NCBI RefSeq assembly: GCF_030936135.1
Contig: NC_082637.1
Coordinates: forward strand, 12,165,001 to 12,229,000
Length of the DNA stretch: 64,000 nucleotides
DNA from: Gavia stellata
Taxonomy: Eukaryota > Chordata > Aves > Gaviiformes > Gaviidae
Direction of reading: 5' to 3'
Both the position numbers and the translations under genes were made by a program. Of the stretch, positions 1,715 to 43,307 are shown in pieces (position 1 is the stretch's first letter; each line of letters begins with the position of its first letter). The notes below the pieces were generated by a model. The model did not search any database, had not been told where the DNA came from, and saw nothing but the letters and a program-made list of their open reading frames with translations.

Positions 1715-1828
1715 ATGGAGGCCATCAAGAAGAAGATGCAGATGCTGAAACTGGACAAGGAGAACGCCATCGACCGCGCCGAGCAGGCGGAGGCCGACAA
1801 GAAGCAGGCGGAGGACCGCTGCAAGCAG
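1715..1828 (+). CDS. TPM2: TPM2 exon 1a (high-molecular-weight first exon)
   Basis: Encodes residues 1-38, beginning [20 protein letters not shown]. The ATG is in strong context (CCGCCACCATGG), and the exon ends CAG before a GTGGGT donor. This N-terminus forms the head-to-tail overlap with the next tropomyosin and is used in muscle and long cytoskeletal isoforms. Confidence 0.97.
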
Positions 1829-42000: not shown

Positions 42001-43307
42001 CTGACCAGAGGCAAAACCAAGGACACGTTATGAGGCTAAGCCCGGGAAACAAACCCGCGGGCAAAGCTGGGACGAGGAGCGTAGCCAGGGACAGGAACGT
42101 CCCAGTGCAGCGCTCAGCCCCACGTGAGTGAATGCATGGCACTGCCCCAAAATCCCTGCTGAGCACTGGCAGCACCACAGTCCCCAGTCAGAAAAGGGAC
42201 CAAGACCGGAGACCCAGGACTTTTCCCTCAGAACAGTGACCCTGAAATCTGAAAGACCCCATGCCACCAGCAAGACAGCTCTTGGGGGTGGGGGGGGGAG
42301 GTTTGGCACACAACACCACACAGCCCTGAGTTCAGGCACGTCCCCCGTTCCCCATCGTCAGCCATGGGGCAGACCCCTACCAACTCCTCAGCAGGGCCAG
42401 ACCCCATCCTTGCTGGGCTGTGGGGGCACAATGTGGGTGCAGGGCCAGACACAGCAGACCCCGCTGGGGAGAGGCCATGCTGCAGGACAAAGGGGACCAG
42501 CCGCCATCCCGCCACGCTGGGGTCCGGGGCTAGACCCTCCAGCTGGTCCCAGCGAGGCACTGCTTGCTGCACAGCCCCAGCTACCCCCATACCAGAAGCC
42601 GCGAGCCCCCTAATCTGATGCAAAAGGGACTTAGTGGGGGAAAAGGGCTGCACACCAGGCAGGGGCCCCCAGCACCTGGGCAGGGGTCGGGCGCACAGGA
42701 GTTGGCGGGAGCGGGGACAAAGGCAGAGGCGTGCTGGGGTGGGGGGGCAGCTCCCGCAGCTGGGCTATGTGGGGGGGCACAGCCTCCCAGGAGCACCCCA
42801 CACTGGGGCACACCTGGGCCCCTAACAAGGGTGCAGCAGCCCCCCCAAACCAAGCAAGGGGAGAGCTCCCCAGCATTGGGGACCCCCCCCAAAGCCTTAG
42901 GCATCCCAAATCCAGCACCCCAGGCATTGGGGTGCCCCATGCATCAAGGACCCCAAAGCCAGCAAGGGGGGGAACCCCATGCATCAGGGCACCCCACACA
43001 TCAGGGACCCCAAACTCAGTATTGGGGTGCTCCATATATCAGGGTGCCCAGGCACCAGCATGCCTAAACCCCGCCCCGGGGTGCCCCGTGCATCGGGGTG
43101 CCCCGCGCATAGGGGACCCCAGACCCAGCAGCGGGGTGCCCCACGCATCGGGGCGGCCCGCGCACGGGGGACCCCCTGCTCACCCTTCTCCCGGGAGTGC
43201 GGGGAGTCCTCGCCGCCGTGCTCTTCCTCGTCGTGCTCGCTGCCGGCGCCGGCGCGGCCCAGGGCGGCCAGGAGCAGGAGGGAGACCCGCAGCGCGGCGC
43301 GGCTCAT
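26964..43307 (-). CDS. CA9: Carbonic anhydrase IX, membrane-anchored (12 coding exons)
   Basis: CA9 is a zinc enzyme at the cell surface that interconverts CO2 and bicarbonate with the active site outside; in mammals it is a HIF target. Exons in order: 43184-43307, 35871-35900, 34423-34593, 32077-32219, 31213-31305, 30856-30922, 30368-30525, 30087-30228, 27619-27642, 27411-27440, 27182-27275, 26964-27027; 1140 bp, 379 residues, every junction in phase. Signal peptide about 1-22, acidic stretch 24-41, carbonic anhydrase domain about 45-300, stalk 310-328, membrane span 329-352, tail ending [12 protein letters not shown]. Zinc ligands are His133, His135, His158; proton-shuttle His107; Thr239-Thr240; Cys63 and Cys243 for the disulfide; FNQT sequon at Asn253. 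CA9 is favoured over CA12/CA14 by RNNGH, PGSEHTV.G.RF.AEIHVVH, WTVFNQT and GD.LA..FG.LFAVT.

.AFL. It is shorter than human CA9 (459). Confidence 0.95.
27182..27275 (-). CDS. CA9: CA9 exon 11 (membrane span)
   Basis: 94 bp encoding (G)[20 protein letters not shown] then [10 protein letters not shown] and two bases of Arg359. It aligns well with the human CA9 membrane segment GDILALVFGLLFAVTSVAFL and has a basic stop-transfer flank. Confidence 0.95.
27411..27440 (-). CDS. CA9: CA9 exon 10 (30-bp stalk micro-exon)
   Basis: 30 bp encoding [10 protein letters not shown], with the first codon split, between CCTTTGCAG and GTGAGC. It keeps phase 1 on both sides, so skipping it is frame-neutral. It forms part of a short Ser/Ala stalk. 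Confidence 0.88.
27619..27642 (-). CDS. CA9: CA9 exon 9 (24-bp stalk micro-exon)
   Basis: 24 bp encoding (G)NDGSAAA, between CTCTTCCAG and GTAGGT, phase 1 both sides. It was found by phase and splice context rather than by similarity, so it is slightly less certain than the domain exons. Confidence 0.85.
28215..28382 (+). mobile_element. CR1 LINE 3' end
   Basis: Reads GGGCTGCCCAGGGAGGTGG then GTGGAGTCACCATCCCTGGA, TTGGACTTGATGATCTAAAG, TTTTCCAACC and the terminal octamers GATTCTACGATTCTATG. This is the diagnostic 3' end of avian CR1 retrotransposons. The copy is 5'-truncated. Confidence 0.93.
29050..29560 (+). mobile_element. Decayed CR1 reverse-transcriptase fragment
   Basis: A 78-codon frame at 29056-29292 includes [20 protein letters not shown], matching the CR1 reverse-transcriptase pattern (A-V-D...L-S-K-A-F-D-x-V-x-H). 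Weaker similarity to later CR1 sequence continues to about 29560. It is broken and inactive. Confidence 0.75.
30087..30228 (-). CDS. CA9: CA9 exon 8
   Basis: 142 bp, from phase 0 to one base of Gly310, encoding [20 protein letters not shown] onward to FSTKQLPS. The L.NNYR..Q.L.GR.V.ASF core is the standard C-terminal strand of alpha carbonic anhydrases. Confidence 0.95.
30368..30525 (-). CDS. CA9: CA9 exon 7 (substrate-site exon)
   Basis: 158 bp encoding (G)[20 protein letters not shown] onward to MLLSHDQ. It carries GSLTTPPC, including the catalytic Thr pair and the disulfide Cys243, and WTVFNQT with the N-glycosylation sequon. The donor GTCCGT is weaker than its neighbours. Confidence 0.96.
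30856..30922 (-). CDS. CA9: CA9 exon 6
   Basis: 67 bp encoding [20 protein letters not shown] then RE and one base of Gly210. It matches the NsAYeqlLshLeeI helix of human CA9. Acceptor ATTGCAG, donor GTAAGG. Confidence 0.94.
31213..31305 (-). CDS. CA9: CA9 exon 5
   Basis: 93 bp, phase 0 to 0, encoding [20 protein letters not shown] then [11 protein letters not shown]. It contains the third zinc ligand, His158. Confidence 0.96.
32077..32219 (-). CDS. CA9: CA9 exon 4
   Basis: 143 bp encoding (V)[20 protein letters not shown] then VQLHLHWG and [15 protein letters not shown]. It contains zinc ligands His133 and His135 and Glu145 of the proton network. Confidence 0.96.
32220..34422. other. CA9 intron 3, nothing recognised
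   Basis: About 2.2 kb. The middle part (32760-34000) is clearly more AT-rich than the rest of the gene. It shows no exon and no repeat I can name. Confidence 0.5.
34423..34593 (-). CDS. CA9: CA9 exon 3
   Basis: 171 bp encoding (D)[20 protein letters not shown] onward to [10 protein letters not shown]. It contains Cys63, the QSPI.I signature and proton-shuttle His107. Acceptor TGTACCAG, donor GTGGGC. Confidence 0.96.
34594..35870. other. CA9 intron 2, nothing recognised
   Basis: About 1.3 kb between exon 3 and the 30-bp exon 2, with no conserved exon or recognisable repeat. Confidence 0.5.
35871..35900 (-). CDS. CA9: CA9 exon 2 (30-bp micro-exon)
   Basis: 30 bp encoding [10 protein letters not shown] plus one base of Asp52, between TTTTTTTCAAG and GTAAATAC. 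It bridges exon 1 phase 1 and exon 3 perfectly and supplies the HSHWSYEG entry motif of the carbonic anhydrase fold (human CA9 DQSHWRYGG). Human CA9 also has a very small second exon. Confidence 0.93.
35901..42880. other. Left and central part of CA9 intron 1, no gene seen
   Basis: About 7 kb of the 7.3-kb first intron. It contains many short frames without support, a C12 run near 38083-38094 and no recognised element. HIF or other enhancers could lie here, but none stands out. Confidence 0.5.
42885..43170. repeat. Degenerate GC-rich tandem repeat at the start of CA9 intron 1
   Basis: Words such as GGGGTGCCCCATGCATCAGG and GACCCCAAA recur with a roughly 30-45 bp spacing right next to exon 1. 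It is a second, weaker array on the downstream side of the CA9 promoter. Confidence 0.65.
43184..43307 (-). CDS. CA9: CA9 exon 1 (signal peptide and acidic N-terminus)
   Basis: 124 bp encoding [20 protein letters not shown] then [20 protein letters not shown] and K plus one base of Gly42. The ATG has G at -3 and A at +4; no upstream in-frame ATG is present. The hydrophobic core LLLLAALG and AGAG/S cleavage site mark a signal peptide. The acidic stretch of under 20 residues replaces the long repeated acidic proteoglycan-like region of human CA9. Donor GTGAGC. Confidence 0.93.

Follow-up and report, generated by a model that had tools for sequence, protein, structure and literature searches.

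Gene content of the window

The window analysed here is a stretch of 64,000 nucleotides of the Gavia stellata genome (positions 12165001-12229000 of contig C44; the genome scanned comprises 1.32 Gb). It holds three genes in a row: TPM2, an APH1 gene and, in convergent orientation to the latter, CA9. The claim of an earlier note that the three are immediate neighbours was borne out by tblastn, by the Pfam Aph-1 profile and by comparison with PDB sequences. The features are as follows.

1715-12475, plus strand: TPM2 (beta-tropomyosin), found by tblastn with human TPM1 and TPM2 and by the Tropomyosin profile
1715-1831, 2643-2771, 9130-9264, 10323-10445 and 10553-10636, plus strand: TPM2 exon pieces, ends as aligned
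11393-11470, 11599-11664, 11972-12070 and 12395-12475, plus strand: further TPM2 exon pieces, ends as aligned
18800-19549, strand not applicable: CpG-rich stretch over APH1 exon 1
19286-24791, plus strand: APH1 gene
19286-19398, plus strand: APH1 exon 1, start codon at 19286, donor GTCAGT
21868-22038, plus strand: APH1 exon 2, open, GT-AG
23552-23625, plus strand: APH1 exon 3, open, GT-AG
23796-23918, plus strand: APH1 exon 4, containing the conserved Gly122/126/130
24267-24394, plus strand: APH1 exon 5, containing the conserved His171 and His197
24668-24791, plus strand: APH1 exon 6, ending at a GTAAGT donor
43307 to about 29870, minus strand: CA9, first exon with ATG at 43307, 3' end approximate

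The tropomyosin gene was assigned by tblastn with human TPM1 and TPM2 queries. The TPM2 query scored above TPM1 in seven of the nine exon pieces; identities were, for instance, 100% for TPM2 and 88% for TPM1 at 10323-10445, and 100% and 81% at 12395-12475. At 9130-9264 and 11972-12070 the two were equal or nearly so. The Tropomyosin profile matched the same locus at C44:12166715, 12174127 and 12175323. An open alternative first exon of the low-molecular-weight type lies at 6782-6913 on the plus strand and is followed by a GTAAGG donor; TPM2 of chicken uses such an exon, and that of mammals is not known to do so.

All six APH1 exons found are open and have GT-AG borders, the exon-1 donor being unusual, though GT. 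Their lengths (113, 171, 74, 123, 128 and 124) are identical, in the same order, to those of the APH1A gene which the genome carries on contig C33, and the phases are equal too, so the window APH1 is no retrocopy. The encoded protein matched Pfam Aph-1 (PF06105) over profile positions 1-231 of 231 with 308 bits (E 4e-92; cut-off 25.6), and in the PDB set it scored 342 bits against human APH1A and 299 bits against human APH1B; NCBIfam gave no family for it. A terminal coding exon 7 was sought between 24793 and 29700, where the best score (24) fell below the mean maximum of 30 shuffles (28.6; highest 38), and none is therefore claimed. The CpG-rich stretch over exon 1, where two windows of 500 bases had observed/expected CpG values of 0.82 and 0.96, is a possible promoter island. 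Intron 1 contains a 46-bp minisatellite of about 30 copies (19490-20891), which could make the gene hard to assemble.

The first exon of CA9 is signal-peptide-like, and its ATG marks the end of the trio as delimited in the earlier note. Four matches to carbonic anhydrase domain exons follow between 34591 and 30347 on the minus strand, and the best PDB scores were those of human CA9 (214 bits), against 182 for CA14 and 165 for CA12. A 45-bp minisatellite of about 31 copies (43589-44973) begins roughly 280 bases upstream of where CA9 translation starts, in the likely promoter of that gene.

Left of the window, directly upstream of TPM2, a talin (TLN1 by place) occupies about C44:12137800-12161700 on the plus strand, as seen from PTB, Talin VBS2 and Talin_middle profile matches and from a talin-like C-terminal exon recognised by eye. 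The right flank yielded three pieces, given here in window coordinates.

75077-75340, minus strand: myosin-head exon, with muscle myosin and myosin-XV as best PDB scores
66534-66956, minus strand: SH2-like piece, recognised by eye only and with no Pfam match
93214-93465, plus strand: RhoGEF-like piece, recognised by eye only and with no Pfam match

An Rfam scan of the window returned 0 matches at gathering scores.

APH1 loci and the paralogous block

A search of the whole genome with the Aph-1 profile gave nine exon matches in three loci: four on C33 (1.272-1.275 Mb), four in the window and one on C13 (5.277 Mb). The C33 gene is APH1A, with 80.1% identity to human APH1A over 246 columns and an APH1A-type tail exon read in translation. 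At each of the three, a carbonic anhydrase gene stands no more than about 11 kb away from APH1, tail to tail with it on the other strand; the best PDB score identifies it in each case.

C33 1277716-1280438, strand opposite to APH1A: CA14
C13 5254304-5260056, plus strand: CA12
Window 30347-34591, minus strand: CA9

The chance of finding all three APH1 loci less than 15 kb from a carbonic anhydrase is about 2e-11, an order of magnitude only, as it assumes 11 carbonic anhydrase places where about 13 clusters were seen and uses a distance of 15 kb that was set after the distances were known. In human, APH1A lies at 1q21 beside CA14 and APH1B at 15q22 beside CA12. The proposal that the window is the TPM2/CA9 member of a duplicated block thus holds, the other APH1 loci lying beside CA14 and CA12.

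The likeness extends further on C13 and C44, which share one four-gene block, TLN-TPM-APH1-CA, in mirrored orientation: on C13 the first three genes lie on the minus strand and the carbonic anhydrase on the plus strand, and on C44 the strands are reversed. The matches that place the outer genes are these.

C13:5540258, minus strand, and C44:12141377, plus strand: TLN, from profile matches, the talins having these two loci
C13:5360226, minus strand, and C44:12174127, plus strand: TPM, from the Tropomyosin profile

The same profile detected four tropomyosin loci in all, on C13, C32, C33 and C44. The one on C33 lies 1.5 Mb from APH1A, and for C32, the fourth, no APH1 or carbonic anhydrase was present among the matches listed. 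For the tropomyosin on C13, human TPM1 is a better match than TPM2 (93 against 91% and 89 against 85%, one piece found with TPM1 only and one equal); the talins and the tropomyosins of C32 and C33 are named by place only. The window APH1 therefore is a separate and ancient copy, most likely a 1R/2R ohnolog, since the three APH1 loci are each joined to a carbonic anhydrase and C13 and C44 have the TLN-TPM-APH1-CA order in common. It has co-duplicated neighbours in a paralogous block, as befits such an ohnolog. At human 9p13, TLN1, TPM2 and CA9 adjoin one another, and no APH1 is known among them.

A study of nicotinic receptors lists APH1 among the families of a quadrupled vertebrate paralogon 1, of which the chicken Z is one member (PMC6354393). 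This is the same block as that of the window, and the part of the text that was accessible gives no statement on a Z copy of APH1. Among the titles and abstracts listed from the open-licence PMC literature, none dealt with an APH1 linked to TPM2 and CA9, and APH1, TPM2, CA9 and TLN1 do not occur in the main texts of PMC12954441, PMC8449477 and PMC6321700.

Relationship to APH1A and APH1B

The window APH1 is 63.8% identical to human APH1A, 61.8% to the genome's own APH1A and 57.6% to human APH1B; for comparison, human APH1A and APH1B are 59.2% identical to each other. In a four-taxon test with these proteins, the topology with the two APH1As together had a p-AU of 0.998, and the alternatives 0.004 and 0.001. 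A five-taxon test included the APH1 remnant found on C13, represented by two exons with 98 comparable residues. Twelve of the 15 topologies were rejected by AU (leaving three) and ten by SH (leaving five); the six that paired the window APH1 with one APH1A were rejected by both. In the three topologies which passed AU the APH1As stood together, and only the joining of the window APH1, human APH1B and the remnant differed; the same topologies passed when a weak exon-5 piece was added to the remnant. On these alignments a place of the window APH1 inside the APH1A clade is excluded. An APH1A orthologue would group with APH1A and adjoin CA14, and the window gene does neither, its neighbour being CA9.

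With respect to APH1B, the window gene is set apart by synteny, as sequence alone cannot separate the two. An APH1B orthologue would be placed between TPM1 and CA12, and that slot on C13 is taken by a decayed APH1. The separate ohnolog proposed in the earlier note, which would have fallen had the gene nested within either clade with no other locus of that clade in the genome, is thus upheld by the tree as regards APH1A and by synteny as regards APH1B. The name APH1B for the C13 remnant is itself given by its place beside CA12 and TPM1 and not by its sequence, because its identities are near equal: 47 of the 98 residues are in common with each of human APH1A, human APH1B and the window APH1, and 50 with the genome's APH1A. 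The mixture of A-like and B-like residues described in the note was indeed seen; at 65 columns in which human APH1A (used here one N-terminal alanine short) equals the genome's APH1A and differs from human APH1B, the window protein has the A residue in 29, the B residue in 14 and some other residue in 22.

In a rival explanation, the window gene is a duplicate of APH1B that left the TPM1/CA12 block and entered the TPM2/CA9 block later than the vertebrate duplications, with decay of the C13 copy following. The topology this would produce, with human APH1B as sister of the window gene, ((hA,bA),(hB,W),psiB), passed with p-AU values of 0.26 and 0.225 in two runs. A copy with introns would, however, have had to enter the exact paralogous slot, in the right orientation, between a tropomyosin and a carbonic anhydrase. 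Its 57.6% identity to human APH1B is also as deep as the divergence between A and B, and the flanking genes are old paralogues (CA9 against CA12, TPM2 against TPM1), which precludes a recent block duplication. We regard such a later duplication as very improbable.

State of the CA12-linked copy

Exon 2 of the C13 APH1 has an in-frame TAA in mid-exon, with ungapped alignment on both sides; a second TAA in the profile match sits at the exon edge. With exon-wise profiles run over 70 kb of sequence without N, exon 2 scored 60 bits and exon 6, which is open and recognisable, 53 bits. Two weak matches agreed with the gene in strand and order: an exon-5-like piece (10.1 bits, E 0.02) preceding exon 6, and an exon-1-like piece (5.4 bits, E 0.6) that lies 1.4 kb upstream of exon 2 and has no start codon at the usual place. 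Exons 3 and 4 were not found in the 70 kb, their best scores (1.5 and 2.5 bits) being at chance level and misplaced. In a control tblastn, the genome's APH1A found six of six exons of the window APH1 and two of six at C13; a diverged but intact copy is therefore visible to this search.

It could be argued that the C13 gene is intact in life and appears broken only through assembly error or missed exons, in which case the bird would have three working APH1 genes. The state of exon 6 and the weak exon-1-like and exon-5-like matches are compatible with this, and stops within a profile match can stem from intron overrun, as may be the case in a presenilin match. The first TAA lies within the exon, however, and the fruitless search for exons 3 and 4 in sequence without N, the missing start codon and the 2/6 yield of the control all point to decay, so that we consider an intact gene very improbable. 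As assembled, the APH1 beside CA12 has the appearance of a pseudogene.

The separate APH1A and APH1B loci which the earlier note asked for are thus both present, on C33 and C13, the latter in a decayed state. Its suggestion of a third gamma-secretase scaffold in this lineage is not supported, given the TAA and the exons that were not found. Since the CA12-linked copy looks broken, the genome appears to have two intact APH1 genes, not three, and the picture would be one of a swap in which ohnologs survive, rather than of a third working scaffold. A DNA search for a second copy of the window gene, such as a W gametolog, matched the window itself and APH1A exon 2 only. Contig collections from viruses and prokaryotes gave 168 and 197 pattern matches, among which no contaminating vertebrate APH1 was confirmed and no relative was found.

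Predicted function and constraint

The members of the APH1 family are seven-pass membrane proteins, and mammalian APH1A and APH1B give gamma-secretases that differ in Notch and amyloid processing. Gly122/126/130 and His171/197, which are functionally important, are all present in the window APH1 (5/5). It keeps 111 of the 130 residues common to the other three intact APH1 proteins. A Nei-Gojobori (NG86) comparison with APH1A gave a dN/dS of about 0.32 (dN 0.31, dS 0.96); with dS near saturation, this speaks for constraint over most of the gene's history and not for the present. APH1 proteins assemble with presenilin, nicastrin and PEN-2, and two presenilin loci, partners for APH1, were found in the genome.

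An additional scenario is that the window gene is fading or no longer functional. The unrecognised exon 7, the unusual exon-1 donor and the 19 of 130 common residues that have changed would fit such a course. Against it stand the open frames of the six exons, their GT-AG borders and unaltered lengths, the retained glycines and histidines and the richness in CpG around exon 1; moreover, of the 47 common residues that lie in exons 2 and 6, the window gene keeps 40 and the C13 remnant 32. Loss of function in the window gene is, in our estimation, improbable.

Taken together, these results suggest, with a probability of about 80%, that the window APH1 is an intact-looking third ancient ohnolog of the APH1 family, situated in a TLN1-TPM2-APH1-CA9 block and likely to encode a gamma-secretase scaffold. 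It would be a new member of a known family. The TLN-TPM-APH1-CA block would have been copied in the early vertebrate genome duplications, the window representing its TLN1-TPM2-APH1-CA9 member. If expressed, the gene would give rise to a seven-pass membrane protein with a role like that of APH1A and APH1B, for which a gamma-secretase scaffold is the likeliest assignment: it may link nicastrin to presenilin, giving a distinct gamma-secretase complex, and may share the function of the decayed APH1 beside CA12 or have replaced it.

C44, of 89.5 Mb, carries three of the five DM-domain matches of the genome, at 30.19-30.29 Mb. A DMRT1-DMRT3-DMRT2 cluster on one large chromosome, in a genome of this size, fits the bird Z, the genes here being DMRT-like by their DM domain. 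Because of this cluster C44 probably is the Z chromosome, and males would accordingly have a double dose of this APH1 and females a single one.

A broader scheme, to which we give an even chance, is a reciprocal resolution of an APH1 quartet: the copy linked to TPM2 and CA9 would have been lost in mammals, which retain APH1A and APH1B, and APH1B would have been lost in this lineage, which retains APH1A together with the Z-linked gene. If this is true, a bird 'APH1B-like' gene is not orthologous to human APH1B, and birds have one form of gamma-secretase that is sex-dosed. Survival of the third copy in birds would also make the vertebrate APH1 types three and not two, and would offer a natural test of one ohnolog standing in for another; with bird APH1B decayed, results from chick embryos and human cells would compare non-orthologous scaffolds.

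Comparison with known APH1 genes

Human APH1A belongs to the same family, likewise has a convergent carbonic anhydrase neighbour and has the key glycines and histidines in common with the window protein; the resemblance to the genome's own APH1A includes the six exon lengths and phases. Human APH1A differs in its block, in the exclusion of the window gene from its clade and in its tail exon, which was not found for the window gene. In the case of human APH1B, the C13 block that matches its neighbourhood has the same gene order as that of the window; unlike APH1B, the window gene lies in the TPM2/CA9 and not the TPM1/CA12 block, and the gene at the APH1B site is a decayed one in this genome. 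Mouse likewise has a third APH1 gene, Aph1c, but this is a copy made from Aph1b in rodents, and the window APH1 is far older and lies in another block.
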